Assembly: GCA_003159355.1 (NCBI GenBank)
Contig: PLPA01000191.1
Location: forward strand, 1-36,621
DNA: 36,621 nt
Direction of reading: 5' to 3'
Source of the DNA: Acidobacteriaceae bacterium
Lineage (GTDB): Bacteria; Acidobacteriota; Terriglobia; Terriglobales; Acidobacteriaceae
The position numbers were made by a program, and so were the translations under genes. Shown here in pieces: positions 9,054-29,346 of this stretch. How positions within the stretch are numbered: the first letter of the stretch is position 1; the number at the start of each line of letters is the position of its first letter. Under the pieces are notes generated by a model that was not told where the DNA came from, made no database searches, and was given only the letters and a program-made list of their open reading frames with translations.

Positions 9054-10211
9054 ATGAGCGACGATTTGATTTTGAAGAATGCCCGGGTAGTGACGCCCAC
9101 GGAAGTTGTTGCAGGATCGGTCCATCTTCGCGACGGCTTGATCGCCGACATTCAAACCGGTCCGATAAATTCGCCGAGCGCTATCGATCTCGAAGGAGAC
9201 TATCTTATTCCCGGTCTGGTCGACCTGCACACCGATAACGTGGAACGCCACATACGTCCGAGAAGAGATGCGGATTGGCCGATGCTGGCTGCGCTTATGG
9301 CGCATGACGCCGAGATGGCGGCCGTGGGCATCACAACTGTTTTCGACGCTCTCTATGTTGGGCAAAGGAACATCGATCCGCAAAGTTCCGGCACGCTTGA
9401 ATTGGCTATTGCCGCGCTTAATGCTGGACGGAAGAAGAAGGTATTTCGCGCAGAACATTTTCTGCATCTGCGCGCCGAAACTTCGCGGGAGGCGATGCCG
9501 GAGATATTCGCTTCGGTCTACCCAGAGGCGAGTGTGCGCTTGATCTCGGTGATGGATCACACACCAGGACAACGGCAATTTGCCAATCGCCAAGGAAACG
9601 GCGGCCAATATGGCGGCGGCGGCCGGAGAAGGGATCGCGGGTCAGCGGAAGAAATTGCAAGCGGACCTGATATGAGCGCAGAAGAGCGCCAGGAAAAGAT
9701 AGCCGCGTCCAACCGCGCCAATCTGCTTTCCATGCTTTCCGGTCATTCGATCGCGCTGGCCAGCCACGACGATACGACGATCGAGCATGTGGAGCAGGCG
9801 TACGCGGAGGGGATCAGCATCGCAGAATTTCCGACCTCGGTAATCGCAGCCCAGACAGCGCGCGATAAGGGGATGAAGATCGTGGCCGGCTCACCGAATC
9901 TGGTGATTGGCCGTTCTCTCTCCGGCAACGTCGCCGTTGAAGAACTGGGGCGGCTCGGCCTGCTGGATGTGTTGGCCTCTGATTATGTGCCCGCAAGCCT
10001 GCTGCACGGTGCATTCCTATTGTCAGAAAAGATTGGGATCCCACTGCCGGAAGCGATCGGAATGGTTACTCTGAATCCCGCGCAACTGACGGGCCTGAAC
10101 GACCGTGGCTGCATCGCGCATGGCAAGCGCGCCGATCTGGTGCGTGTGCGAATGGAAGAGGGGCTTCCGGTTCCGACAATTGTATGGCGCGAAGGAATGC
10201 GCGTCTGCTAG
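9054..10211 (+). CDS. phnM: PhnM-family amidohydrolase (paralog 1)
   Basis: IPGLVDLHTDNVERHIRPR, AEHFLHLRAE, LISVMDHTPGQRQFANRQ, IALASHDDTTIEHV, LLDVLASDYVPASLLHGAF. Confidence 0.92.
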   Translation: MSDDLILKNARVVTPTEVVAGSVHLRDGLIADIQTGPINSPSAIDLEGDYLIPGLVDLHTDNVERHIRPRRDADWPMLAALMAHDAEMAAVGITTVFDALYVGQRNIDPQSSGTLELAIAALNAGRKKKVFRAEHFLHLRAETSREAMPEIFASVYPEASVRLISVMDHTPGQRQFANRQGNGGQYGGGGRRRDRGSAEEIASGPDMSAEERQEKIAASNRANLLSMLSGHSIALASHDDTTIEHVEQAYAEGISIAEFPTSVIAAQTARDKGMKIVAGSPNLVIGRSLSGNVAVEELGRLGLLDVLASDYVPASLLHGAFLLSEKIGIPLPEAIGMVTLNPAQLTGLNDRGCIAHGKRADLVRVRMEEGLPVPTIVWREGMRVC

Positions 10212-10241
10212 GTGCATACTCGCCACGGATTGGATGACTTT

Positions 10242-11072
10242 ATGAATATCAGTGTAAGTATGTATGAGGACACCGCAGCGTTCTCGGACGTTGCCGGAGA
10301 GTTCCTGCGCTCGCAACCGGTTCACCACAACCTGATTCTCACGCGGCTGGATGGACGTCAGGCCGTTCCTGGTGCTGGCCGTTATTGGGTTGTAATGAAA
10401 GGCGGGCAGGCTGCCGGCGTGGCGATCCAAACCGATCCGGCTCGTTTCGCGATGATTGTGCCGATGGACCGTGTTTCAACAATCGCCTTGGTTGATGCCA
10501 TAGTAGACGGCGGAGTTGTTCTCCCTGGTGTCTTTGGCGATGTGGCAACCGCAGCCAGCTTTGCCGGACGATGGACCGAAAGATTCAAATCAGCGGCAAC
10601 GCCAACGCATGGCAGTCGCCTATATGAATTGCAGGAGCTGAATGCGATAGGAACCGTCAAAGGGAAACACCGCAAGGCCGATGAGTCAGATCGCAAGCTG
10701 GCGGAGGCTTGGTTGAAGGCGTTCCAGACTGAAACCCTCAATCCAACCGGAAACATCGATCGCCTAGTGGATGGCTGGCTCACGGAGGGACAGCTTTGGC
10801 TTTGGCAAGACGGCGAACCGGTTTCCATGGTTGTTGCTCAGAAGCCCATCGTAGAAGTTGCCCGCCTCTCGACTGTCTATACCCCTCCAAAGAAGAGGAG
10901 GCGCGGATACGCCGCAGCCTGCGTTCATACGATTTCAAAGAAACTAACGGAGGCAGGCCTTCATTGCATTCTCTACACTGACTTGGGAAATCCCACATCG
11001 AACTCGATCTATCGCCGCATGGGATACCGCGCCATTGCGGAGGGGATTCACTATCGCTTCAACCGGACTTGA
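10242..11072 (+). CDS. GNAT-family N-acetyltransferase
   Basis: C-terminal ...VARLSTVYTPPKKRRRGYAAACVHTISKKLTEAGLHCILYTDLGNPTSNSIYRRMGYRAI shows the GNAT acetyl-CoA loop and beta6/7. A GTG start at 10212 is also possible. Confidence 0.82.
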   Translation: MNISVSMYEDTAAFSDVAGEFLRSQPVHHNLILTRLDGRQAVPGAGRYWVVMKGGQAAGVAIQTDPARFAMIVPMDRVSTIALVDAIVDGGVVLPGVFGDVATAASFAGRWTERFKSAATPTHGSRLYELQELNAIGTVKGKHRKADESDRKLAEAWLKAFQTETLNPTGNIDRLVDGWLTEGQLWLWQDGEPVSMVVAQKPIVEVARLSTVYTPPKKRRRGYAAACVHTISKKLTEAGLHCILYTDLGNPTSNSIYRRMGYRAIAEGIHYRFNRT

Positions 11073-11084
11073 ACGAAGATATGT

Positions 11085-12278
11085 GTGCCGCCAAACATGA
11101 AGACAACTACGAATGCACAAAACACAAAGGATGGCGCAATGCCGAATGAGTTGATGTTGAAGAATGCAAGGATTGTAACACCGACTGAGATCGTGGAGGG
11201 ATCGGTTCTTCTTCGCGACGGTCTGATTGCCGATATTCAATCCGGTCCGGTCGTGTTGGCGAAGTCTATCGACCTCGAAGGAGACTATCTCATCCCCGGT
11301 CTGGTCGATCTGCACACGGACAATTTTGAGCGCCTTGTAAAGCCGAGGAACAATGTGGATTGGCCGGTGATGGCCTCCTTGGTGGCGCACGATGCGCACA
11401 TGGTCTCTGCCGGCATTACCACCATCTTCGATTCGCTCTACGTGGGGTTCCTGGGCTTCGGATCGCGTAGCTTCGACACGCTCAAGAATACAATCTCCGA
11501 ATTGGAGATATGCCAGAGAAGCGGAATGTTTCGTGGAGATCACCTGCTGCACTTGCGCGCCGAAGTATCGATGGAGGTAATGCTCGAGCAGTTTTCATCA
11601 GTCTTTCCAGAGGAGAAGGTGAGGCTGGTTTCCTTGATGGATCACACGCCGGGGCAGCGGCAATGGAGAGACCTCGACAAGTATGTAGCGATGGAGAAGA
11701 AGGATTTTCATCTCACGCAGGAGGAAGTCGACAACTTCCTGAAGACTGCTCAGGAGCGGCATGAAAAAGTCTCTCCAGCAAATCGCGTCAAGCTGCTTTC
11801 CATGGTCGAGGGTCATTCCATCGCCCTGGCAAGTCACGACGACACCACCGTCGAGCATGTGGAGCAGGCTCATGCGGAGGGCATTACGATCTCCGAGTTT
11901 CCCACCACGATTGAAGCGGCAGAGACGGCGCGCGCCAAGGGAATGCATGTAGTCGCGGGATCGCCGAATCTTGTGCTGGGGCGGTCGCACTCCGGCAATG
12001 TTTCGGTAGAGGAGCTTGCGCGGCGCGGTCTGCTGGATGCGCTGGCCTCGGACTACGTGCCATCGAGCCTGCTGCACGGCGCATTCCTGCTCACCCAGAA
12101 GATAGCAATGCCGCTGCACGAGGCTATCAAGATGGTCACCCTGGCTCCGGCGCGGATGGCTGGCTTGCAGGATCGCGGCAGCATCGAGACAGGTATGCGA
12201 GCCGATCTGGTGCGTGTGAAGCAGGCGCACGGCTTACCGCTTCCGTTGACGGTTTGGCGCGAAGGAGTGCGAGTGTGA
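11085..12278 (+). CDS. phnM: PhnM-family amidohydrolase (paralog 2)
   Basis: LIPGLVDLHTDNFERLVKPR, GDHLLHLRAE, LVSLMDHTPGQRQW, IALASHDDTTVEHV, NLVLGRSHSGNVSVEELA. May start downstream of 11085 (for example 11140). Confidence 0.92.
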   Translation: MPPNMKTTTNAQNTKDGAMPNELMLKNARIVTPTEIVEGSVLLRDGLIADIQSGPVVLAKSIDLEGDYLIPGLVDLHTDNFERLVKPRNNVDWPVMASLVAHDAHMVSAGITTIFDSLYVGFLGFGSRSFDTLKNTISELEICQRSGMFRGDHLLHLRAEVSMEVMLEQFSSVFPEEKVRLVSLMDHTPGQRQWRDLDKYVAMEKKDFHLTQEEVDNFLKTAQERHEKVSPANRVKLLSMVEGHSIALASHDDTTVEHVEQAHAEGITISEFPTTIEAAETARAKGMHVVAGSPNLVLGRSHSGNVSVEELARRGLLDALASDYVPSSLLHGAFLLTQKIAMPLHEAIKMVTLAPARMAGLQDRGSIETGMRADLVRVKQAHGLPLPLTVWREGVRV

Positions 12279-12872: not shown

Positions 12873-13571
12873 TTACAAGTACTTTTCGACAAACTCCTCG
12901 GCGCTCATCTTGCGCAGGTCGGGCATGGCGATTTCGAGCTTCTCGCGCGGCCAATCCCACCATGCCAGCTTGAGAAGCCCCTCCTGCACTTTCTCGGGAA
13001 AGCGAAAGCGAATGTGCTTTGCCGGCACGCCGCCTACGATGGCAAAGGGCGGCACATCTTTGGAGACGACCGCGCCTGCGCCGATGCCTGCGCCTGTGCC
13101 GATTCTCACGCCGGGAAGAATGACCGCGCCGTGGCCGATCCACACATCGTTTCCCAGGGTAACTCTATGCTCTTTTCGCCACTCGAAAAACTCGTGATCG
13201 TCTTCGACCGCAAAGCCATACGATTCGCTGCGGTAAGTGAAGTGATGCAGCGCGGCGCGCCACATGGGATGGTTTCCTGGATTGATGCGGTTGGCCGATG
13301 CGATGGAACAGAATTTGCCGATGTCGGCCCATACGATACTACAGTCGTTGACGACATAGGAATAGTCGCCGAAGGTGGATTCTCCCATTGAGGTTCGTGG
13401 ACCGATCGATGTGTAAGGCCCAAGTACGCACTTGCGCACGCGAGCGGTGGGATCGATGCGAGGCTCCAGTCCAAGGGACTGTCTTTTCGCCTGGGTCTGA
13501 TCCGCCGGTGGATCGGGCAGGGTCTCCATTGGTTCAAGGTGTGTGGTCGCCATCTCTTTCTCTCCATTCAT
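12873..13571 (-). CDS. Phosphonate-operon hexapeptide-repeat acyltransferase (DapH/LbH type)
   Basis: ARVRKCVLGPYTSIGPRTSMGESTFGDYSYVVNDCSIVWADIGKFCSIASANRINPGNHPMW...LGNDVWIGHGAVILPGVRIGTGAGIGAGAVVSKDVPPFAIVGGVPAKHIRFRF: left-handed beta-helix repeats, of the type found in phn operons. Confidence 0.88.
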   Translation of the reverse strand: MNGEKEMATTHLEPMETLPDPPADQTQAKRQSLGLEPRIDPTARVRKCVLGPYTSIGPRTSMGESTFGDYSYVVNDCSIVWADIGKFCSIASANRINPGNHPMWRAALHHFTYRSESYGFAVEDDHEFFEWRKEHRVTLGNDVWIGHGAVILPGVRIGTGAGIGAGAVVSKDVPPFAIVGGVPAKHIRFRFPEKVQEGLLKLAWWDWPREKLEIAMPDLRKMSAEEFVEKYL

Positions 13572-13592: not shown

Positions 13593-15026
13593 TCAGTGGG
13601 CGGTTATGTCCTGCAACTCCCGATGAACCTGCGCGGCTACTTCGGGCAAGGACAACATGCATTGCGCAAGGATGCGCTCGTGGCTTCTTGCATCGAAGCC
13701 CTCGATACGCAACGACAGGACAGCTTCAGTCCCGGACTCACGAACCAGGACGACGCCGTCTTTCAGGGTGAAGCGAAGACCGTCGATTTTCAAGATGCCG
13801 GCTTCGGGAAATGCGGCGGTCAACGCATCCACAGCTCTACTGAAGGTCAGCGATTCAGTTGGTATGCGCAACTCCGGCATAGCGAAGATTTGTGGCAGGC
13901 CGCGCCGAAGCTGGGCCAGCGACAGACCCTTCTGTTGCAACAGATCGAGAATGAAGAGCGCGGCAAAGAGTCCATCGTCACCGCCGTTCAGCTCCTCAAA
14001 GAAGTAGTGGCCGCAGGCGTCGAGGCCCATCAACGCCTGCTCAACCACCATCCGGCCGCGCATGAAGGCATGGCCAGTCCGTTCGAGGAGTGGTATTCCT
14101 CGAAGCTGCTCGATGGCGCGACGCACGAGGTCGGAAGATTTGATATCGACGACAATCCTGCGGTTTGCAGAGCCAGTCTTGTCTTGTTCCTCAAGCACCG
14201 CATGGGTCAACAGGATCGCTATCTCATCCGGAGAGACAAAGATTCCTTCTTCATCGACAAAGGCAACGCGGTCTCCATCGCCGTCCCATGCAATGCCGAT
14301 CGAGTCTGGCTGCTCGGCAACCGCACCGCTCAAGCGCGTGAGATTGGATGCGCGCGAGCAATCCGGGGAGCGGTCGGGAAAGTTGCCGTCGATGACGCAC
14401 GATATGCAAGTCACATCGAAGCCCAGGCGGCGGAATATCTCCGGAGCGATCTCCGACCAGGCTCCGTTTCCCGCATCCAGTACTACTTGTCCAGGCCCGT
14501 TTGCATGGAGATGGTTCCACCGCTTCAGCAAGGTTCGCTCATAGTCCTGGAGAAGATTGATCTCTTCTCTGTGGCCGCTACCGGGGCGAAATGCGCGCTT
14601 TATGGTAAGCGCGCGTATCTTGGCGAGTTGCTCTGGAGTTGTAGGAGACGAGCCGAGCATCAGCTTAAGTCCATTGTGAGAGGCTGGATTATGCGAAGCA
14701 GTCACAATCAGCACCGCATCCGCGTTGACCCGGCTGGCTGTAAAATACGCCAGCGGAGTGGGGCCTTGTCCTGCATCCAGAACATCAACGCCAGTTGCGA
14801 GCAGCCCTTCTGCAAGAGCGTGCTTCAACGCAGGCGTGCTCAATCTGAAATCTCCCGCAACCACCACGCGAGAAGAAGGCGGAAGCATGGTGCCGATCGC
14901 GCCGCCAATATCGCGGAAGAGTTCAGTCGAAACGGCATCTGGAAAGACGCCGCGCAGGTCGCAGGGCTTCCACGGATCTGACTCAGGCAAGATCAACTCC
15001 TCTGCCATGGCATGATTCATTGTCAT
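13593..15026 (-). CDS. Alpha-D-phosphohexomutase family (phosphomannomutase/phosphoglucomutase-like)
   Basis: VLIVTASHNPASHNGLKLM phosphoserine loop, GIAWDGDGDRVAFVDEEG metal loop, GGDDGLFAALFILDLL. ATG at 15026 overlaps the upstream stop (ATGA). Confidence 0.92.
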   Translation of the reverse strand: MTMNHAMAEELILPESDPWKPCDLRGVFPDAVSTELFRDIGGAIGTMLPPSSRVVVAGDFRLSTPALKHALAEGLLATGVDVLDAGQGPTPLAYFTASRVNADAVLIVTASHNPASHNGLKLMLGSSPTTPEQLAKIRALTIKRAFRPGSGHREEINLLQDYERTLLKRWNHLHANGPGQVVLDAGNGAWSEIAPEIFRRLGFDVTCISCVIDGNFPDRSPDCSRASNLTRLSGAVAEQPDSIGIAWDGDGDRVAFVDEEGIFVSPDEIAILLTHAVLEEQDKTGSANRRIVVDIKSSDLVRRAIEQLRGIPLLERTGHAFMRGRMVVEQALMGLDACGHYFFEELNGGDDGLFAALFILDLLQQKGLSLAQLRRGLPQIFAMPELRIPTESLTFSRAVDALTAAFPEAGILKIDGLRFTLKDGVVLVRESGTEAVLSLRIEGFDARSHERILAQCMLSLPEVAAQVHRELQDITAH

Positions 15027-15760
15027 GAAGACCTCAAGTAGACCCGATCCAGAAGCTGAAACGGTGCTTCCGGATGCGACTCGTGAAAGATGCAAACAGA
15101 ATCGACCAACAATGCCTCGCCACAAACCGATGCAAAGCGTTGGCGGAGATATTGTTTAAGAGGCGGCAGCGCTTCCGGAGGCATAGAACCGGTGAGCGAC
15201 ATATGAAACTTCCAGGTATCGAGGACGTAAGGATAACCCCATCGCAAGACATATTCCCGCTCCCGCAGAGAGAGAGAGTCTCGCAATCGTTGCGCCAATT
15301 CGGCCTCCGTGGCTGGGAGTCGATAGCGATCAAACTCGCGTACGCAATCGGTTGCCAGATGGCAGAACTCTTCGCTCGATGCCGACAGAGTGAGGGCGAG
15401 AAACCGTCCCAAGGTTCCTATGCGAAGTGGGGGCGCGCAAAAGCAAACGTGTCTCTTGGCTAATTCGTGGAGAGCTGCCTGCAAATCTTCATACGTTGCG
15501 TTTTCCGCAAGCCGAAAGGGAGGCTTGAGAGTTGCATGAAACCCATAGCGGCGCGGGCTTTCGGTAGCGCGCAGCCATTCTTCATGTTGGATGTGATCGG
15601 GCAAATCTGGATCGAGATCGGCGCCTGTGGCGGCGTCACGGCCAAGCCATCGACTGCCTTGACCGTAGAGCGGCGCACTGGGGCTGGGGCAGAAGTAGAT
15701 TGCGTATCGCGATGTGTTTCCGTTCAGATCGTGCATATTAAAATCGGTCCTCTTTGCCAT
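15023..15760 (-). CDS. DUF1045 phosphonate-associated protein, 2H phosphoesterase-like
   Basis: RYAIYFCPSPSAPLYGQGSRWLGRDAATG, PRRYGFHATLKPPFRL and WKFHMSLTGSMP: the two H-x-T/S motifs of 2H phosphoesterases and the DUF1045 pattern. Confidence 0.9.
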   Translation of the reverse strand: MAKRTDFNMHDLNGNTSRYAIYFCPSPSAPLYGQGSRWLGRDAATGADLDPDLPDHIQHEEWLRATESPRRYGFHATLKPPFRLAENATYEDLQAALHELAKRHVCFCAPPLRIGTLGRFLALTLSASSEEFCHLATDCVREFDRYRLPATEAELAQRLRDSLSLREREYVLRWGYPYVLDTWKFHMSLTGSMPPEALPPLKQYLRQRFASVCGEALLVDSVCIFHESHPEAPFQLLDRVYLRSS

Positions 15761-19753: not shown

Positions 19754-20314
19754 ATGACCGCAGACGGGATTTGCGTCAGAGGCATTCATCCGCGGGCGAA
19801 CCGGCTGGTTCGGGCGCCTGGGTTGGAAAAGGGGACGGATTCTGGAATGACAGCCAATCTTGTGAACCGAAATTCGCATGAAACGGGAGAACTCGGACTG
19901 GGTCCGGACTACACTCTGTGCGAATGCGAATTGGAGCCATTGAAGCAACTGGTTGCGCGGCTGGAGCGGGCCAGCCAGGTTGAAGTTCGAAAGAGTCCTT
20001 CGGTTTGCCTGACCATGATTCCCGCCGAGGACTCGCTGGAAAAGCAGAAGTTCTTTCTTGGCGAGGCTCTGACGACGGAGTGCGAGGTAGCCGTGGATGG
20101 TCTTCCGGGCTTTGGACTTTGTCTTGGGGACGAACCCGTCCGAGCGTATTGCATCGCCGTGGTGGATGCGCTGTTGCATGGAGATCGCCCTGCTCCCATC
20201 GAGGTCGAAGCGTTTCTTCGCGAGCAGGGTGAGGCGGTTGCCCGCCGCGATCAGGACGAGTTCGATCTGGTGCTCCAGACGCAAGTTGACTTCAAGCTGA
20301 TGGAGGAAGAATGA
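19754..20314 (+). CDS. phnG: PhnG-like C-P lyase subunit (start 19754 or 19847)
   Basis: LEPLKQLVARLERASQVEVRKSPSVCLTMIPAEDSLEKQKFFLGEALTTECEVAVDGLPGFGLCLGDEPVRAYCIAVVDALLHG; PhnG-like position and pattern, divergent. Confidence 0.85.
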   Translation: MTADGICVRGIHPRANRLVRAPGLEKGTDSGMTANLVNRNSHETGELGLGPDYTLCECELEPLKQLVARLERASQVEVRKSPSVCLTMIPAEDSLEKQKFFLGEALTTECEVAVDGLPGFGLCLGDEPVRAYCIAVVDALLHGDRPAPIEVEAFLREQGEAVARRDQDEFDLVLQTQVDFKLMEEE

Positions 20315-20934
20315 GCACTCTGGTAACAGTTCAGCCCTATAACCAAATCTTCGATGGACAGAAGCACTATCGCACCTTGCTGCAATGCACCGCTCGTCCT
20401 GGAACCATTGGCCAGCTCGACGATGCGTTGCTGAATCTTCCATCGCAATTGAACCGCGCTACCGCACTGCTTGCGCTGGCTCTCTTCAGCGGAGACATCT
20501 CATACTATCTGGACGAAAACCAAGCGCAGGCCGCTAATTTTATCCGCAGCGAGACGGCTGCCAAGCCGATCTCCGCCGAGCAAGCGGACTTCCTGATTCT
20601 TACCGACGGAAACCGGCTTGAGGGGCTTCAGCAGGCCAAGCCGGGAACTCTTTCGTTTCCGGATCAAGGCGCTACCGTTGTGTTGCAGGTTTCGGCAATC
20701 TCTCCTGCTCCGCTGGCGGATTCTCTGCGCCTGACGCTGACAGGGCCGGGAATCGAATCTGAAACCGTGGTGTTCGTACTGGGCGCCTGCGAAGAGTTCT
20801 TTGCAACTTTGCGGGAACGCAATGCGGAGTTTCCTTTGGGCGTTGATGTTTTTCTTACATGCGACAGCTTGTCGGCGGGTCCGTGCGTGATGGCTCTGCC
20901 GCGCACTACGCGCGTGCAATGGGAGCGGATATAA
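20311..20934 (+). CDS. phnH: PhnH-like C-P lyase subunit
   Basis: QKHYRTLLQCTARPGTIGQL...GDISYYLDEN...FPDQGATVVLQVSAISPAPLADSLRLTLTGPGIESE...NAEFPLGVDVFLTCDSLSAGPCVMALPRTTRV. ATGA overlap with phnG. Confidence 0.92.
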   Translation: MSTLVTVQPYNQIFDGQKHYRTLLQCTARPGTIGQLDDALLNLPSQLNRATALLALALFSGDISYYLDENQAQAANFIRSETAAKPISAEQADFLILTDGNRLEGLQQAKPGTLSFPDQGATVVLQVSAISPAPLADSLRLTLTGPGIESETVVFVLGACEEFFATLRERNAEFPLGVDVFLTCDSLSAGPCVMALPRTTRVQWERI

Positions 20935-20970: not shown

Positions 20971-22137
20971 ATGGGATATGTAGCAGTCAAGGGCGGACAG
21001 GACGCGATCGAAAATGCGATCAAGCTGGTCGACTACTTCCGTTGGAAGGGGCGGACCAAGCCGATCGAACTCGATCAGGCGCGTACCCAAATGCGGCTGG
21101 CAGTGGACAGAGCCATGGGCGAGGGATCGCTCTATGCGCCGGAGCACGCGGCGCTGGCGTTGTTGCAGGTGGAGGGCGATTCCTTCGAGGCGGCCTTTCA
21201 TCTGCGCGCTTATCGGGCCACACTCGAGCGCCGCTACGACGCCGAGATTCTGAATACACGAGAGATGTTTGTGCACCGCCGCATCTCTTCAACCTTCCGC
21301 GATATACCAGGCGGCCAGATACTCGGTCCCACCCGGGATTACTCCTTTCGGCTTCTTAATCCAGCTCTTCTCAATGCCAGCCTCGGTTCCATCGAGAAGT
21401 TTCTCTCCGATCTCCGCGACGAGATCGATCCCAACAAGCTGCATGAGATGACGACCTACAAGAAGGTGATCGATATCTTCCTGAAAGAAGGTCTAATGAG
21501 CAGTCAGGCGCGCCCCGGCGAGGACCGGCGTGTCTTCGATGTAACGCGCGAGGCGATCAAGTTTCCCGTGCCGCGCTCCGCCACGCTACAGATGCTGGCG
21601 CGCGCCGAGACGGGCGCGCTGATGTGCATGGCCTATAGCACCATGCGCGGCTTCGGCATGGCGCATGGAACCGTGGGCGAACTGCGCGTCGGTGAAGTGC
21701 CGGTGCGCGTTGTGGATAAGCGCGGACGGCTGCGTTGCGTGGGCAAGATCAAAGTCTCCGAGGCCGAAATGGTAGGCGGATCCGGTCACGGGCAGGGTGA
21801 GGGTGGCGGTCGCGCGGCAAAAAAGACGGGCGCACCAAGATACTCGATCGGTTATGGCCTCTGTTTTGGGCAAAACGAGACCAAGGCCATCTGCATGGGC
21901 ATGGTTGAAAGCGCGCTGCGCAATCCCAACTCGGATAATCCCGCGAACAATCAGGAGTTTGTTCTCTATCACACCGAAGTGATCGAGGGATATGGATTCA
22001 CCAACCATCTCAAGCTACCGCACTACGTAACTTTCCAGGCAGGCATGGAAGGCGCTCGCAGAGTAGCCCGGAAGAACAGCGATAAGGCAGAACAAGTGAC
22101 CGTAAGCGCGGGCGGCGTGGAGGAAAACAATGATTGA
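20971..22137 (+). CDS. phnI: PhnI-like C-P lyase subunit
   Basis: MGYVAVKGGQDAIENA, LAVDRAMGEGSLYAPEHAALALLQVEGDSFEAAFHLRAYRATL, RRISSTFRDIPGGQILGPTRDYSFRLL, YSIGYGLCFGQNETKA, NHLKLPHYVTFQ. Confidence 0.96.
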   Translation: MGYVAVKGGQDAIENAIKLVDYFRWKGRTKPIELDQARTQMRLAVDRAMGEGSLYAPEHAALALLQVEGDSFEAAFHLRAYRATLERRYDAEILNTREMFVHRRISSTFRDIPGGQILGPTRDYSFRLLNPALLNASLGSIEKFLSDLRDEIDPNKLHEMTTYKKVIDIFLKEGLMSSQARPGEDRRVFDVTREAIKFPVPRSATLQMLARAETGALMCMAYSTMRGFGMAHGTVGELRVGEVPVRVVDKRGRLRCVGKIKVSEAEMVGGSGHGQGEGGGRAAKKTGAPRYSIGYGLCFGQNETKAICMGMVESALRNPNSDNPANNQEFVLYHTEVIEGYGFTNHLKLPHYVTFQAGMEGARRVARKNSDKAEQVTVSAGGVEENND

Positions 22138-23014
22138 AAATCTCAAGTTTCAGCATAGCTTCAACTACGCATACATCGACGAGTTCACCAAGAAAGAGAT
22201 ACGGCGTAAGACACTCAAGGCGGTTTGCATTCCCGGCTATCAGGTTCCTTACTCTTCACCGGAGATGCCGATCTCGCGCGGCTGGGGAACCGGCGGCTTG
22301 CATCTGACGCTCTCTCTGGTAGGACCGGACGATGTGCTGAAGGTGATCGATCAAGGCAGCGACGCCAGCGTGAACGCCTGCAATCTGCGTCTCTTCATCA
22401 AGGAGATGTCCAATTGCGCAGTCACCTTCGATACCGCCGAGGCCACGCTAATTCAGACGCGCCATCGCGTGCCGGAAGAGATTCTTACCGAGAAGCAGAT
22501 TCTAGTTCTCCAGGTGCCGCAGCCGGAGGTTCTTCGCGGCGTTGAGAGGCATGAGGCCAAGACTCGCATAATGCACGGCGAAGCCGATTACGCGAAGATC
22601 TGGGTGACTCTGTATGAAGCCTATGTTAGAAGCGGTACTCTGCGCAACGGCGCCGGCCATCCCATCATGGTCAATGGGCGTTATGTTGCCACGCCGTCTC
22701 CGATTCCGAGCTGGGATGTGCCGAATCTGAATAAGGCTCGCTGCCTCTATCTCTTTGGCGCGGGGCGCGAAAAGCGCATCCATTGCATTCCTCCCTTCAC
22801 CCGCGTCGAACCGCTGGAATTTGAAGATATTCGCTTCAAGGTGGAAGAGTTTGTCGGCGTTCGCTGCTCGACGTCCGGTCAGGACAAGGCGTTCATGGAT
22901 CAGGTCTACGCAGACGACCTGAGCAGCAGTTACGTGATCAACGACAGTAACTTTCTCGACAAACTGCGCAAAGGGCCACGGCCGCCGCAGAAACTCTTTA
23001 CCAATCCCGAATAG
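22130..23014 (+). CDS. phnJ: PhnJ homolog, lacking most radical-SAM/thiyl cysteines
   Basis: FNYAYIDEFTKKEIRRKTLKAVCIPGYQVPYSSPEMPISRGWGTGGLHLTLSLVGPDDVLKVIDQGSDASVNACNLR, LIQTRHRVPEE, YLFGAGREKRIHCIPPFTRVEPLEFED, then RCSTSGQDKAFMDQVYADDLSSSYVINDSNFLDKL. Confidence 0.95.
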   Translation: MIENLKFQHSFNYAYIDEFTKKEIRRKTLKAVCIPGYQVPYSSPEMPISRGWGTGGLHLTLSLVGPDDVLKVIDQGSDASVNACNLRLFIKEMSNCAVTFDTAEATLIQTRHRVPEEILTEKQILVLQVPQPEVLRGVERHEAKTRIMHGEADYAKIWVTLYEAYVRSGTLRNGAGHPIMVNGRYVATPSPIPSWDVPNLNKARCLYLFGAGREKRIHCIPPFTRVEPLEFEDIRFKVEEFVGVRCSTSGQDKAFMDQVYADDLSSSYVINDSNFLDKLRKGPRPPQKLFTNPE

Positions 23015-23016
23015 GA

Positions 23017-23868
23017 ATGAAGGCCGCGATGAATAACAATTGGTTGTTGCGTGTTCGGAATCTGACCAAGATTTATGGTGAAGCTACGCCGGGAGTGCTG
23101 GAGCGTACCGGGCCAAAATTCGATACGAATATCTGCTCCAGGACCGGCGCCGTCGTTGCAGTGAACGGCATCAGCTTCGATCTTTATCCGGGCGAGGTGC
23201 TGGGCGTTGTTGGAGAGAGCGGGTCGGGCAAAAGCACGCTGGTGCAGATGCTTTACTTCGATCAGGAAGTAACTGCGGGCGAGGTAAACTTCAAGCCCAT
23301 CGAGGACGGCAACGTCAACCTCTTCGAGCTTTCCAACCAGAAGAAGCGCTACGTCCGCAATCACTTGATGGGCATGGTCTATCAAAATCCGCGGGATGGG
23401 TTGAACTTCCGCTTTACTTCCGGCGGAAATATCGCCGAGAAGCTGCTTATGGCCAATGTCTTCAACGTAGGCAAGATTCGTATTCGTGGCGCCGACCTGC
23501 TGACCAAGACCGAGGTGCCCATCCAGCGCATGGATGAATCTCCGGCGCGCTTCAGCGGCGGAATGCAGCAGAGGGTGCAGATCGCCAAGGCCATCGCCAA
23601 CAATCCTCCGCTGCTGCTGTTGGACGAGGTGACCAGCGGTCTCGATGTCTCCGTGCAGGCCAAAGTCCTGGACCTGATTCGCGGCCTGCAACAGGATCTT
23701 GGTGTATCGATGATCGTCGTCTCGCACGATCTCGGCGTGATCCGCATGTTGACCGACCGCACCATGGTTCTGAAGCACGGCCAGATCGTCGAACAGGGAC
23801 TGACCGATCAGATTCTGCAAGACCCGCAGCATGGATACACACAGCTTCTGGTCAGTTCGCTGCTCTAG
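23017..23868 (+). CDS. phnK: PhnK-like ABC ATPase
   Basis: LRVRNLTKIYGEATPG..., ISFDLYPGEVLGVVGESGSGKSTLVQML, FSGGMQQRVQIAKAIANNPPLLLLDEVTSGLDVSVQAKVLDLIRGL, SHDLGVIRMLTDRTMVLKHGQIVEQGLTDQILQDPQHGYTQLLVSSLL. Confidence 0.95.
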   Translation: MKAAMNNNWLLRVRNLTKIYGEATPGVLERTGPKFDTNICSRTGAVVAVNGISFDLYPGEVLGVVGESGSGKSTLVQMLYFDQEVTAGEVNFKPIEDGNVNLFELSNQKKRYVRNHLMGMVYQNPRDGLNFRFTSGGNIAEKLLMANVFNVGKIRIRGADLLTKTEVPIQRMDESPARFSGGMQQRVQIAKAIANNPPLLLLDEVTSGLDVSVQAKVLDLIRGLQQDLGVSMIVVSHDLGVIRMLTDRTMVLKHGQIVEQGLTDQILQDPQHGYTQLLVSSLL

Positions 23869-23873
23869 CGAGT

Positions 23874-24629
23874 GTGAGCGCGCAAGGTACGGACAGAGAA
23901 AAAGAGGACAAGATGGGATCGTTATTGGAAATCGTGGACTTGGAAAAACGGTTTGAGTTGCACATCCTCAATGAGAAAGAGATCGATGCTCTGCATGATG
24001 TCTCCTTCGATGTGAAAGAGGGAGAAATCCTCGCACTGACCGGCAAGTCAGGCTCGGGTAAGTCGACTCTGATGAAGTGCATCTATCGGACTTATCTTAC
24101 AACCAGTGGCCGGATGATTTATCGCGATGGACAGGGCGCGGTGATTGATCTGGCATCCGCAACCGAGCATGAGGTTCTGCGGATTCGCAGGACAGAGATG
24201 ACGTATTGCTCACAATTTCTTCAAGTCATTCCGCGCGTGCCGGCAATCGATGTGGTCGCCTCCGGCTTGGTAGCGCGTGGGCGGTCGATCGAAGAAGCGC
24301 GGCGCGCTACCAGCGTATGTTTTGAACGTCTGAGTCTGCCTGCGGAACTCTGGGATGCCTATCCGTCGGTCTTCAGCGGAGGAGAACAGCAGCGCGTGAA
24401 CATTGCCCGCGCCATGATCTCGCGCCCCCGCTTCCTGCTGGTAGATGAACCGACGGCCTCTCTGGACATCACCACGAAGGATGCGGTGATCGATATGCTG
24501 CTCGAACTCAAGCTGGCCGGCACGTCGATCATCCTGATTTCCCACGACGAGCATACATTGCGAAGGATGTCTGACCGTTCGCTGCATCTGGAGAACGGGC
24601 GTCTCAAAGAAGCAGTTGTCTACGCATAA
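23874..24629 (+). CDS. phnL: PhnL-like ABC ATPase (start probably about 23913)
   Basis: VSFDVKEGEILALTGKSGSGKSTLMKCIYRTYLTTSGRMIYRDGQGAVIDLASATEHEVLRIRRTEMTYCSQFLQVIPRVPAIDVVA, FSGGEQQRVNIARAMISRPRFLLVDEPTASLD. Confidence 0.95.
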   Translation: MSAQGTDREKEDKMGSLLEIVDLEKRFELHILNEKEIDALHDVSFDVKEGEILALTGKSGSGKSTLMKCIYRTYLTTSGRMIYRDGQGAVIDLASATEHEVLRIRRTEMTYCSQFLQVIPRVPAIDVVASGLVARGRSIEEARRATSVCFERLSLPAELWDAYPSVFSGGEQQRVNIARAMISRPRFLLVDEPTASLDITTKDAVIDMLLELKLAGTSIILISHDEHTLRRMSDRSLHLENGRLKEAVVYA

Positions 24630-24638
24630 AGGAGAATC

Positions 24639-25571
24639 ATGAAACGCCTGTGGATCTGCTTTGTTGTACTTATTTCGGGAGTCATATTCATTTCTCTGAA
24701 TGGCTGCAAGGCAAGCCATGCTAGTGACGGAAGACCGACGGTTTTGCGTTACGCGTTTATGCCTCAGGTTGAACAGTTAGAGGGTGGTAACCTGCGCACC
24801 GAGCTGATGCGCAATTATCTTCAGAATCAGCTTCATATGCCGGTTGAGATTGTGAAATTGGAAGGATACGCCTCAACCATTGAAGCCATGCGCGCCGAGA
24901 AAATAGATATGTTCTCCGGCAGTTCGCTGACCTATCTCATTGCGGCGCAAAAGGCTGGCGCGGAAGCGATTGCCGCGCGTGGCTTCCCGGACGGCACGCT
25001 GGGCGGATACCGGTCGGTGATCGCGGTGCCCAAAGACAGTCCGATTCACTCCATGCAGGATCTGAAGGCGCACGCCAAGGATACCGTCTTCGCATTTGCC
25101 GAGCCGGCTTCCACCTCTGGATATCTGTACCCTCGCGTTGGACTGCTTGATGCGGGCATCGATCCGGAAAAAGACTTCAAGAAGGTGGTCTTCGCGGGCA
25201 ATCATATCGCCACGATTATGACAGTCAAGTCAGGCAAGGTGGGCGCGGCAGGCTTCATGCTGGGTTACATGACTCGGCTCATCGAAAAACATAAGTTGGC
25301 ACCGGACGATGTGCGCGTGATCTGGACCTCTGATCTGATTCCAAACGGCCCCTACGCAGTTCGTAAAGGTTTGCCCGATCAACTGAAGAAGGATATTCAG
25401 GCTGCGTTGATTGCCATGCCGACCAAAGCCCCGGATGCCTGGGCCAATATCAACAGCTTGTTCCGCACGCCGGCCAGCGGGACTGTGCTTATTCCTGTCA
25501 ACGATGCGACGTATGACGGCTTGAGAAAGTATGCGTCGCAGGTCAAAGACTTTAACTTTGCTGAAAAGTAG
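24639..25571 (+). CDS. phnD: PhnD-like phosphonate ABC transporter substrate-binding lipoprotein
   Basis: Lipobox-like FISLNGCKAS; VLRYAFMPQ; FAFAEPASTSGYLYPRVGLLDAGIDPEKDFKKVVFAGNHIATIMTVKSGKVGAAGFM. Confidence 0.92.
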   Translation: MKRLWICFVVLISGVIFISLNGCKASHASDGRPTVLRYAFMPQVEQLEGGNLRTELMRNYLQNQLHMPVEIVKLEGYASTIEAMRAEKIDMFSGSSLTYLIAAQKAGAEAIAARGFPDGTLGGYRSVIAVPKDSPIHSMQDLKAHAKDTVFAFAEPASTSGYLYPRVGLLDAGIDPEKDFKKVVFAGNHIATIMTVKSGKVGAAGFMLGYMTRLIEKHKLAPDDVRVIWTSDLIPNGPYAVRKGLPDQLKKDIQAALIAMPTKAPDAWANINSLFRTPASGTVLIPVNDATYDGLRKYASQVKDFNFAEK

Positions 25572-25577
25572 GCTTCC

Positions 25578-26417
25578 ATGCTTCATGTATCGAACATTGT
25601 CGTACAACTTCCGAATGGCAAGCGCCTTGTGGATCAGGTGAATTTCACGGTTGGGCGCGGCGAGTTTGTCGGGATTCTCGGATCAAGCGGGGCGGGCAAA
25701 TCGATGACGCTGCGATGCATTGTTGGACTTACCCGGCCCAACGAAGGCGAGATCAGCATTACTGGATGCAACGGCAAAACCTATCGCACAACCAATGTCA
25801 AAGCGCAAGAGCTACGCAGGGCGCGGCGTCACATCGGCTTCATCTTTCAGGGATCGAATCTGGTCAAGCGGCTGACGGTATTGGAAAACGTGATGCTGGG
25901 CCGCCTGGGGCACATCAGTCCCGTTCGCAGTTGGCTGCTGGGCTTCAAGGATGCGGAGGCGCGCGAAGCGATGGTGGCGCTGGACCGCGTGAAAATGGCC
26001 CACTGCGCCGCACGAATGGCAGGTTCACTGAGCGGCGGCGAGATGCAGCGCGTAGCCATTGCGCGCGCCATCCATCAGCGCCCGCTGATCTACCTGGCCG
26101 ATGAGCCGATCTCCAGTGTCGATCCGAGGAACGCCGATGCGATCATGTCGATTCTGCAGCCTCTCTCGCACGAGACGCCGGTGATCGGCGCTTTCCACCA
26201 ACCGGCAGCCGTAGCCAAGTATTGCACGCGCGCCATCGGCATTCGCACGGGCAAGATCGTGTACGACGGTCCGGCACAAATCGCGCCTCGTCAGTTGGAG
26301 TACATCTATGGCGAGTCCGACGGTGATTCAGCGTCGCTAGTTTGGGAATCAGACGCGCAGCCGCCATTGTTCAACTCAGGTGTCGAGGCAGTTTTGCATG
26401 AAGGAGTGACCGTCTAG
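25578..26417 (+). CDS. phnC: PhnC-like phosphonate ABC transporter ATPase
   Basis: GEFVGILGSSGAGKSMTLRCIVGLTRPNEGEI, RRHIGFIFQGSNLVKRLTVLENVMLGRLG, LSGGEMQRVAIARAIHQRPLIYLADEPISSVDP. Confidence 0.95.
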   Translation: MLHVSNIVVQLPNGKRLVDQVNFTVGRGEFVGILGSSGAGKSMTLRCIVGLTRPNEGEISITGCNGKTYRTTNVKAQELRRARRHIGFIFQGSNLVKRLTVLENVMLGRLGHISPVRSWLLGFKDAEAREAMVALDRVKMAHCAARMAGSLSGGEMQRVAIARAIHQRPLIYLADEPISSVDPRNADAIMSILQPLSHETPVIGAFHQPAAVAKYCTRAIGIRTGKIVYDGPAQIAPRQLEYIYGESDGDSASLVWESDAQPPLFNSGVEAVLHEGVTV

Positions 26418-27286
26418 TGGGTTCATCGAGCAAAGAGTTCTTTCGGCAGGAGCCTCCGATCCTGGATTCCAAGTTCCTGGATTGGAAGTTTCTGGAGTGG
26501 AAGAAAAGTATCGCTGGCCAACGCGGTAAGCAGGCCGTGATTGCTCTGGTGCTTGTATTGCTGGTAGCCCTGACGGCGTGGCGCTGCAATGTCGATGTGC
26601 AATCGTTCATAACAGGCATCAATAAAGGCTTTCCATTGGTGGGCATGTTCTTCCCCCCCGAGTGGAGCGGGATGGCGGACATGCTGCAACCGCTCGGTGT
26701 AACAACTGTGATGGCGATGGCCGCCACAATTCTGGGGATGTGTCTGTCTCTTCCTTGCGCGCTGGCTGCGTCCTCGAACATCGCTCCACCTGTGGTGCGC
26801 CAGGTGATGCGAGCCTTCATCGCGCTGGAGCGCGGCTTGCCGGAGATTGTGCAGATGCTGCTGCTCATCGCCATCTTCGGCCTGGGCGCGGTTCCCGGCC
26901 TGGTTGCGCTCTCCTTCAGCAGCATTGGCATGTTAGCCAAGCTGCTGGCCGACGCCATTGAGGAGATTGAACCGCAGATGCTCGAAGCGGTGGCGGGAAC
27001 CGGCGCCACTCGCTCACAGGTGATCCGCTATGCGGTCATTCCCCAGATTCTTCCCGCTCTCTTTGCCAATGGGTTGTTTCGCTTTGAATTCAACGTGCGC
27101 GCGGGCGTGATCCTGGGGGCCATCGGGGCGGGTGGGATCGGATATGTGATGATGACCGCGATGAATTCCATGGACTATCAAAAGGCCTGTATGGCCACGC
27201 TGCTGACGCTGACTCTGGTCTTCTTCTCGGAGCGCATCTCCGATTTCTGCCGGACTCGCATTCTGGATGGAGGAACGCCGCGATGA
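26417..27286 (+). CDS. phnE: PhnE-like permease 1
   Basis: TTVMAMAATILGMCLSLPCALAASS, RAFIALERGLPEIVQMLLLIAIFGLGAVPGLVAL, LLADAIEEIEPQMLEAVAGTGATRSQVIRYAVIPQILP, FEFNVRAGVILGAIGAGGIGY. GTG start overlaps phnC stop. Confidence 0.94.
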   Translation: MGSSSKEFFRQEPPILDSKFLDWKFLEWKKSIAGQRGKQAVIALVLVLLVALTAWRCNVDVQSFITGINKGFPLVGMFFPPEWSGMADMLQPLGVTTVMAMAATILGMCLSLPCALAASSNIAPPVVRQVMRAFIALERGLPEIVQMLLLIAIFGLGAVPGLVALSFSSIGMLAKLLADAIEEIEPQMLEAVAGTGATRSQVIRYAVIPQILPALFANGLFRFEFNVRAGVILGAIGAGGIGYVMMTAMNSMDYQKACMATLLTLTLVFFSERISDFCRTRILDGGTPR

Positions 27287-28107
27287 ATATCGAAGTGCCG
27301 GCCGGAGCGCTGCCCTCGCGAAAATTCCGCATGACGATTCTTTATCTGGCGGCGACCGCAGCAGCGATCTGCCTTCTGTTTACCTATCTGGACATGAGCC
27401 CTTCCAGCTTCGTCGTCGATTTTCGCTTCATCGTAGACCTGGTGCAGCAGATGTTTCCGCCTAACATCGCCCTCTTCTGGACCAAGAAAACGATATTCCT
27501 TTCGTTGATCGATACTCTCTCGATGGCCTTTCTGGGCACCGTCTGCGGCGGCGGCATCGCGTTGTTCCTGGCCTTCTTTGCTGCAACGAATACGACGCCG
27601 CACCCATTGGTGAGGCTTGCCGTGCGCACCTTGCTGGCCATGGAGCGCTCGATTCCGCAACTGATTGTCATTCTTGTGTTGTTGATTACCGTCGGCATCG
27701 GACCATTTGCGGGAGTGCTGACTCTGGTCATAGGATCGGTGGGAATGTACAGCAAATTCTTCGCCGACTCCATCGAACAAGCCGACAAAAACACGATGGA
27801 ATCAGTCGAGAGCTTGGGCAGTACGCGACTGCAGACCATTCGCTATGCCGTGTTGCCGCAGGTGATGCCGTCCTTCGTCGCCAATCTCTTCTACGCCTTC
27901 GATTACAACCTTCGCGCCGCCATTCCACTGGGCGTCTTCGGCGGTGGGGGCATCGGCTTCGAGCTGGCCTTTGCCAACGGCCTGCTGCATTACAAGGACG
28001 TGTTGGCATACACCATTCTGATCGTGGTGATGATTACGGCCATGGAACGCATCTCCGACTGGGTGCGCCGCAGCATCATCACACAACCGCAGCTTATTAC
28101 AAAATGA
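27283..28107 (+). CDS. phnE: PhnE-like permease 2
   Basis: TLSMAFLGTVCGGGIALFLAFFAATNTTP, RTLLAMERSIPQLIVILVLLITVGIGPFAGVL, FFADSIEQADKNTMESVESLGSTRLQTIRYAVLPQVMPSFVANLFYAFDYNLRAAIPLGVFGGGGIGFEL. ATGA overlap. Confidence 0.94.
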   Translation: MNIEVPAGALPSRKFRMTILYLAATAAAICLLFTYLDMSPSSFVVDFRFIVDLVQQMFPPNIALFWTKKTIFLSLIDTLSMAFLGTVCGGGIALFLAFFAATNTTPHPLVRLAVRTLLAMERSIPQLIVILVLLITVGIGPFAGVLTLVIGSVGMYSKFFADSIEQADKNTMESVESLGSTRLQTIRYAVLPQVMPSFVANLFYAFDYNLRAAIPLGVFGGGGIGFELAFANGLLHYKDVLAYTILIVVMITAMERISDWVRRSIITQPQLITK

Positions 28108-28134: not shown

Positions 28135-29346
28135 GTGATGATCGAGACAATTTTGACCAATGCCCGCATTGTTTGCCCCGATTGTGAGGTGAACGGGACG
28201 CTTGTTATCGAGGATGAATGCATCGTCGATATTCTTCCCCACAACCTTCCCGACGGAATCGATCTGCACGGCGCGATCCTCATCCCCGGCATTATCGATA
28301 TCCACACCGACTACCTGGAGCGCGAGATCAGCCCGCGTCCGAGCGCCAAGATTCCGCTTGAGCTGGCCCTGCACGTCATGGATCTGCGCGCCCTCAGTTG
28401 CGGCCTTACCACCGTGTCTACCGCCGCGCGCATCTCGGAAGAACGAGTCGGCGAGATGGGGTCATGGCGCGGAGACGGTCTGGCGCTGGCCAAGCAATTC
28501 GACGAGTTGATTCCGCAGATGCGCGCGAGGCACCGCATTCACCTGCGCTGGAGCCCCAACTTTGAACCGGTCGATGACATTCTCGATCAGTTGCTCCAAC
28601 TGAAGAGCGTCGCCAATCTTGTCTTCAACGACGATATGCCCGGCCAGCGCCAGTTCCGCGACATTGAGGCAATGTTAAAGCAGCACTCCACTCGCCAGGG
28701 AATCTCGATCGAGGCGGCGCGGCAGCGTATGCAAGAGCGCATAGAGAAGGCCGGCAAAGTGAACAACCGCATGGCGGTCAAGGCGCGTGTGGCTGGCAGA
28801 ATTCCTCTCGGAAGTCATGACGACACCACGGTCGAGCACGTGATTGAAGCATTCGAGTCGGGAGCCACTCTGAGCGAAATGCCTTGCTCCATCGAGGCCG
28901 CGCGCAAAGCGAAAGAACTTGGGATGATGGTCTGCATGGGCGCGCCCAACTACTATCGCGGCGGCTCGCACTGCGGAAATCTTTCTTGCCACGATGCGAT
29001 GGCGGAAAACCTGGTGGACATCATTTGCAGCGACTATCATTTTCCGTCTATGCTGGCGTGCGCCATTCGCATGGTGGAAGAAGGCATGACGCTTCCCGCG
29101 GCCATCAATCTGTTTACTCTGAATCCAGCAACGCACCTGGGGTTTGGCGACACTACCGGCAGCATCGAATTGGGCAAGCAGGCGGACCTGGTCGCCTTTC
29201 ATCCGCACAAGGGGTACGGTGATGTCGCCCGCGTCTGGGTCGGCGGCCAGGAACGCTATTCAGCGCTCAAGAATCGTCCTTCGTCGCATCCAGGAATGAA
29301 AGAGTCGCTCCAGCCGGAAGAAGATGCCGTCCCCGCTGGCCAATAG
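28135..29346 (+). CDS. phnM: PhnM-family amidohydrolase (divergent paralog 3)
   Basis: ILIPGIIDIHTDYLEREISPRPSAKIPLELALHVMDLRALSCGLTTV, RIHLRWSPNFEP, LVFNDDMPGQRQFRD, LGSHDDTTVEHV, GAPNYYRGGSHCGNLS. Confidence 0.9.
   Translation: MMIETILTNARIVCPDCEVNGTLVIEDECIVDILPHNLPDGIDLHGAILIPGIIDIHTDYLEREISPRPSAKIPLELALHVMDLRALSCGLTTVSTAARISEERVGEMGSWRGDGLALAKQFDELIPQMRARHRIHLRWSPNFEPVDDILDQLLQLKSVANLVFNDDMPGQRQFRDIEAMLKQHSTRQGISIEAARQRMQERIEKAGKVNNRMAVKARVAGRIPLGSHDDTTVEHVIEAFESGATLSEMPCSIEAARKAKELGMMVCMGAPNYYRGGSHCGNLSCHDAMAENLVDIICSDYHFPSMLACAIRMVEEGMTLPAAINLFTLNPATHLGFGDTTGSIELGKQADLVAFHPHKGYGDVARVWVGGQERYSALKNRPSSHPGMKESLQPEEDAVPAGQ

Follow-up and report, generated by a model that had tools for sequence, protein, structure and literature searches.

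Can a C-P lyase dispense with the cysteines to which its radical chemistry is assigned? The question is raised by a phnJ gene on contig PLPA01000191.1 of a soil bacterium of the Acidobacteriaceae (36,621 nt, hereafter the window). E. coli PhnJ is held to bind a 4Fe-4S cluster at C241, C244 and C266, to use Cys272 as the thiyl residue and to have Gly32 as its radical site (PMC9947105, PMC11978286), and those who study the structure of the enzyme describe its mechanism as a conundrum (PMC9947105). A first-pass annotation of the window, made from its letters alone, had reported that only the first of the four cysteines remains. Natural complexes that have kept all but these cluster and thiyl residues, among them that of the laboratory strain Thermus thermophilus HB8, provide a direct test of whether the cysteines are essential: either the accepted C-P lyase chemistry is not universal, or the single-Cys complexes run a different reaction.

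The phnJ gene and phn cluster of the window

The phnJ frame opens with the ATG at 22130 and reads without interruption through 294 codons, ending with the stop at 23014. Its product matches PF06007 over the full length of the domain (391 bits, residues 10-280; curated cut-off 25). Alignment with the 7z15/4xb6 sequences, and then with the E. coli gene, placed E. coli C241, C244, C266 and C272 opposite C246 (TGC, 22865-22867), S249 (TCC, 22874-22876), I270 (ATC, 22937-22939) and L276 (CTC, 22955-22957), respectively. Codon reading and alignment thus bear out the residues, codons and coordinates of the first-pass annotation, which had also stated correctly that the frame holds and that the equivalents of Gly32 and His108 are well kept. 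The radical-SAM PhnJ motif C-x2-C-x21-C-x5-C is absent, with the C241 equivalent as its sole survivor; by homology the protein belongs to the PhnJ family, and, as judged from this motif, it should not as yet be filed as a radical-SAM PhnJ. AlphaFold2 models of PhnJ built from 5-6 sequences reached a pLDDT of only 36.5 for the window protein and 38.2 for L006, too poor for use of the fold.

The genes phnGHIJKLM lie together with a phosphonate transporter in the order phnGHIJKL-DCEE-M (Table 1), and profile searches agree with the earlier reading of an intact phnGHIJKL operon. Subunits and order are the same as in E. coli, and PhnJ Gly32, Arg107, His108 and Gln124 and the zinc histidines of PhnI are kept. 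Unlike the E. coli system, the window has a PhnJ without C244, C266 and C272, a PhnK with a Cys-eroded insert that E. coli PhnK lacks, and a DUF1045 gene where E. coli has phnP. The DUF1045 protein resembles the 2'-5' RNA ligase superfamily. At 9054-12278, a GNAT gene is flanked by two extra genes for PhnM-type hydrolases, so that this one cluster has three PhnM.

Table 1 Features of the phn region in the window
Feature	Coordinates	Strand	Basis
Second PhnM-type hydrolase	9054..10211	+	NF011984 472 bits; TIGR02318 403 bits
GNAT acetyltransferase between two PhnM paralogues (possible PhnO role)	10212..11072	+	PF08445, PF00583
Third PhnM-type hydrolase	11085..12278	+	NF011984 508 bits; TIGR02318 452 bits
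Phosphonate-associated hexapeptide transferase	12873..13571	-	TIGR03308 294 bits
DUF1045/TIGR03223 2H-type phosphoesterase, putative PRcP hydrolase	15023..15760	-	PF06299 173 bits; TIGR03223 246 bits (cut-off 249)
phnG (ORF open from 19646; PhnG domain starts near codon 91)	19886..20314	+	PF06754 74 bits
phnH	20311..20934	+	PF05845 148 bits
phnI	20971..22137	+	PF05861 398 bits; H219, H328 and H333 equivalents (zinc-site His) kept; HTE replaces HxD
phnJ, single-Cys variant, 294 aa	22130..23014	+	PF06007 391 bits; 48% identity to E. coli PhnJ
PhnJ C-terminal metal-ribbon region	22865..22957	+	C246 kept; S249, I270 and L276 replace C244, C266 and C272
phnK	23017..23868	+	PF00005; insert kept, three of its four Cys lost (TPGV..ICSRT)
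phnL	23874..24629	+	PF00005
phnD, phosphonate substrate-binding protein	24639..25571	+	PF12974 192 bits
phnC-like transporter ATPase	25578..26417	+	PF00005; gene order
phnE permease 1	26417..27286	+	PF00528
phnE permease 2	27283..28107	+	tblastn to PhnE, 124 bits
phnM (operon copy)	28135..29346	+	TIGR02318 320 bits (below curated cut-off); NF011990 294 bits (above cut-off)

Distribution, selection and origin of the single-Cys form

A broad PhnJ alignment, which the first-pass annotation had proposed, revealed a recurrent single-Cys set with patterned replacements. The census drew on plasmid records and on four phyla (Acidobacteriota, Chloroflexota, Actinomycetota and Omnitrophota), with Proteobacteria and Deinococcota sampled through plasmids. 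It gave 78 distinct PhnJ sequences, of which 55 had all four cysteines and 23 were single-Cys, with no intermediates. All 23 carry Cys, Ser/Thr, Ile/Leu/Val/Ala and Ala/Gly/Val/Leu/Met at the C241, C244, C266 and C272 positions, respectively, and all keep Gly32, Arg107, His108 and Gln124; Gly32 and Cys241 are invariant across the whole set of 78. As C241 is never lost, the window PhnJ is better termed single-Cys than Cys-less. Two other genomes of the window's genus showed the same state (89-90% identity), and 20 further PhnJ from three other phyla share the pattern of these three Acidobacteriota proteins. The odd state described for one protein is therefore confirmed, whereas its singularity is not, the variant being recurrent in four phyla.

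PhnJ is rare in Acidobacteriota, where it was found in one of 396 evenly drawn genomes, namely the window's own. It occurred in 35 of 379 Chloroflexota genomes, 12 of them with the single-Cys form, and in 15 of the 398 Actinomycetota genomes examined, all four-Cys. Single-Cys PhnJ are also plasmid-borne in Thermus thermophilus (HB8 pVV8 and SNM7-6), Mesorhizobium (including sp. AR07), Sinorhizobium, Rhizobium, Microvirga, Nitratireductor and Haematobacter, and Microvirga sp. VF16 carries one single-Cys and one four-Cys PhnJ on two plasmids. Databases label the single-Cys proteins as 'C-P-lyase PhnJ', so that surveys of methane release from methylphosphonate based on phnJ as a marker, of which several have been published, would count these genes, whose methane chemistry is putative. 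Searches of the open literature turned up no description of a PhnJ lacking these cysteines and nothing relevant on phosphonate growth of Thermus; this is a real, conserved C-P lyase variant that is undescribed in that literature.

The variant phnJ is under purifying selection. Pairwise dN/dS among the three Acidobacteria was 0.04-0.06 for the whole gene and 0.07-0.16 for the C-terminal part, and other single-Cys pairs gave 0.08-0.19 overall. A search for a second phnJ in the window's genome (assembly 89.7% complete) found none besides the single copy, and the single-Cys form was the sole PhnJ in each of 12 Chloroflexota and three Acidobacteria genomes. Frameshift and a dN/dS near 1, which were named in advance as fatal to the early reading, do not apply, and the second phnJ that the first-pass annotation proposed to search for was not found. 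Sequencing error or frameshift was rejected since the same state occurs in independent genomes and closed plasmids of four phyla, and a decaying pseudogene was rejected on the basis of dN/dS well below 1 and the lack of internal stops; with no point found in its favour, an artefact is practically excluded.

The four-Cys form is probably the older state, because the tree divides at its base into the E. coli-type clade and the rest, and both of these contain it. The closest four-Cys relatives of the window proteins are non-E. coli-type lyases such as those of Actinomycetota (L095) and Omnitrophota (L005), both of which, unlike the window, keep the four PhnJ cysteines. In a PhnJ tree calculated without the C-terminal domain, the main single-Cys group came together (100/98) and the Acidobacteria were placed elsewhere with weak support. 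A tree constrained to one single-Cys clade was slightly better for PhnJ alone (AU p 0.655), and PhnI alone agreed (p 0.685), whereas PhnK leaned against one clade (p 0.109). For the concatenated H+I+J+K+L alignment, one clade was weakly rejected (p 0.031), with the Acidobacteria beside L095 (support 91). If two losses took place, the same substitution pattern arose twice.

Changes in PhnK and PhnI

An insert with two CxxC knuckles (four Cys) was present in PhnK of 22 of 35 four-Cys systems, in many phyla, and absent from the E. coli-type clade; no description of its metal or role was found in the papers searched. In all 20 single-Cys systems examined, this four-Cys insert was either deleted or Cys-eroded. 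It is gone entirely from the Thermus-Chloroflexota-Alphaproteobacteria group, including Thermus thermophilus HB8 pVV8, Mesorhizobium sp. AR07, Haematobacter and Chloroflexota, which share the four-position PhnJ pattern with the window. In the Acidobacteria, by contrast, the insert is kept and its cysteines are eroded, as in the window and in the Acidobacteria loci L107 (AAPGV..MDPKT) and L108 (VTPDVC..ICPKT). The insert of L095 lies at the same place as that of the window and retains its four cysteines. Two ribbon-like Cys sites, one in PhnJ and one in PhnK, are thus missing together, and this speaks for a change that involved the complex as a whole and against the drift of a single subunit.

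PhnI showed changes close to its zinc site. The ligands H219, H328 and H333 were kept in 20 of 20 single-Cys systems examined, and about 10 residues before H328 these systems have HTE (HTD in Thermus) instead of the HxD of four-Cys systems; after deduplication, Thr was found in 18 of 18 and the change of Asp to Glu in 16 of 18. A new Cys two residues before H328 occurred in 15 of the 20, all from Chloroflexota and alphaproteobacteria, and was absent in Thermus and Acidobacteria. The Chloroflexota PhnJ also differs from that of the window in its longer conserved tail. A compensating Cys common to all single-Cys systems was sought in PhnG, H, I, K, L and M, and none was found.

It is possible, if rather doubtful, that iron-sulfur C-P lyases were converted to a cluster-free enzyme on two occasions, in Acidobacteriota and in the Thermus-Chloroflexota-Alphaproteobacteria clade. 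Such conversions would have involved matching substitutions at identical positions, parallel loss of the PhnK ribbon and remodelling of the PhnI zinc site, and the resulting complex would cleave a phosphonate or phosphate ester by a different chemistry.

Possible chemistry of single-Cys complexes

In the E. coli structure, PRcP lies at the PhnI zinc site and is held by PhnJ Arg107, His108 and Gln124 (PMC9947105). This pocket is retained in the window, as PhnJ R107, H108, Q124 and residues 47-50 and PhnI H328 and H333 all have equivalents (roles according to PMC9947105). Single-Cys complexes keep the PRcP/zinc site and are without the cluster/thiyl site. With no frameshift or second phnJ to rescue it and the cysteines lost, the published mechanism cannot run in the window PhnJ as written. 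The claim of the first-pass annotation that canonical radical-SAM cleavage is impossible holds to this extent; loss of C-P cleavage itself does not follow.

We tentatively favour a functional, selectively maintained and cluster-free C-P lyase variant, whose PhnI-PhnJ zinc site would still yield a ribosyl cyclic phosphate, the product, chemistry and substrate being putative. PhnG, PhnH, PhnI and PhnL would couple the substrate to ribose from ATP, and PhnM would then strip pyrophosphate. The zinc/histidine pocket of PhnI-PhnJ would convert ribose 1-phosphonate (or a related P-ligand) to 5-phosphoribosyl 1,2-cyclic phosphate with neither a 4Fe-4S cluster nor a Cys272 thiyl radical, and the product would be consumed by DUF1045 or another phosphodiesterase. 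We favour a chemistry in which the ribose 2'-OH attacks phosphorus directly, aided by zinc and His108; this route would suit substrates whose leaving group needs no radical and is better than a bare alkyl. Some points count against the cluster-free model. A bare alkyl is a very poor leaving group, and methylphosphonate-like substrates would seem still to need a radical; moreover, Gly32, the published radical site, is invariant, yet the model requires no radical there.

The neighbouring genes were considered for the fate of the product. In the single-Cys loci examined with their flanks, phnGHIJKL was present in all and phnM in all except L107, which lies at a contig end. DUF1045 genes were located near the single-Cys clusters of the window, L107, L108, L059 and L077, the last two with PhnN as well, and also beside the four-Cys systems L086 and L088. 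Other putative cyclic-phosphate hydrolases were a PHP-domain protein at L057 and YmdB-type phosphoesterases at both Thermus loci; a putative PRcP hydrolase was not found beside every single-Cys cluster, a further point against the model. PRcP is a substrate of PhnPP, which is a PHP enzyme, and of PhnP. In phn operons, 2H phosphodiesterases replace PhnP and may process PRcP (PMC10574752), and the window DUF1045 protein may be such an enzyme. These nearby hydrolase genes suggest, as circumstantial evidence, that PRcP is still made.

A less likely alternative, though one with some claim to attention, is that radical cleavage is kept and initiated elsewhere, with a separate enzyme or cofactor activating Gly32 and the Cys241 equivalent serving as the thiyl residue. 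The invariance of Gly32 and Cys241 in 78 of 78 sequences, 23 single-Cys ones included, fits this idea, as do the PhnD/PhnE phosphonate transporters kept in many clusters. However, the neighbouring genes that were examined included no activase and no radical-SAM gene, the conservation of Gly32 could be structural, and in the E. coli structure a distance of about 30 A separates Gly32 from the Cys site (PMC9947105).

The C-terminal cysteines might instead form a structural metal ribbon that is dispensable in all C-P lyases, in which case the C272 and cluster assignments would be wrong and the single-Cys clade would be the metal-free form. In C-minus (metal-free) ribosomal zinc-ribbon proteins, a ribbon that is structural loses its Cys ligands and the protein is kept; the case of PhnJ is alike in this loss, but the residues lost are reportedly catalytic. 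A dispensable ribbon agrees with the cysteines missing in parallel from the ribbon-like insert of PhnK and with the aliphatic or small replacements, zinc coordination by these cysteines has been described (PMC11978286), and the E. coli structures leave the distance between cluster and Gly32 unexplained (PMC9947105). On the other hand, the invariance of Cys241 would be unneeded in a dispensable ribbon. SAM-dependent methane formation in vitro, with C272 essential in E. coli PhnJ, was also reportedly obtained by the Raushel group, and we regard this explanation as quite unlikely.

Improbable, too, is a complex that no longer cleaves C-P bonds and makes only ribosyl phosphonates or has some other role, even though every residue assigned to cleavage is gone except C241 and Gly32. 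The first-pass annotation had offered ribosyl transfer alone as one option, against which the retained PRcP pocket, PhnM and nearby putative PRcP phosphodiesterases argue. In addition, at least 15 genomes have no PhnJ other than the single-Cys form, and a dead-end product would supply no phosphorus.

Continued binding of a 4Fe-4S cluster through Cys246, Ser/Thr249 and ligands from other subunits is very improbable: Cys241 is invariant, position 244 is always Ser/Thr and the new PhnI Cys might contribute, but only aliphatic residues occupy the C266 position and only aliphatic or small ones the C272 position, Thermus and Acidobacteria do not have the PhnI Cys, and none of the subunits has acquired a Cys that all single-Cys systems share.

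Several other arrangements were observed in the census. The single-Cys clusters of Rhizobium sp. AB2/73 (L078) and Microvirga sp. VF16 (L077) lie beside ABC transporters of the sugar type, accompanied by a PfkB-like kinase, or of the oligopeptide type, and no PhnD or PhnE match was found in these stretches, suggesting unusual substrates. On plasmids of Agrobacterium vitis, a Dysgonomonadaceae and Klebsiella pneumoniae (L092, L093 and L094), phnGHIJKL adjoins an ABC transporter of the iron type, no phnM, phnN or phnP was seen in the vicinity, and PhnJ has four Cys but Gln in place of His108. This arrangement resembles a further variant of the complex, converse to the single-Cys one. A PhnJ match in the record of Pseudomonas phage Y12 (OQ572413.1, 6952-7767) may represent genuine phage cargo or contamination from the host. 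In Actinoplanes sp. TBRC 11911 (L007), PhnJ, with its four Cys, and PhnK are fused in a single frame of 601 codons. One Chloroflexota genome (G354, contig C2, 183351-196995) carries two differing four-Cys phn clusters about 12 kb apart (L045 and L046).
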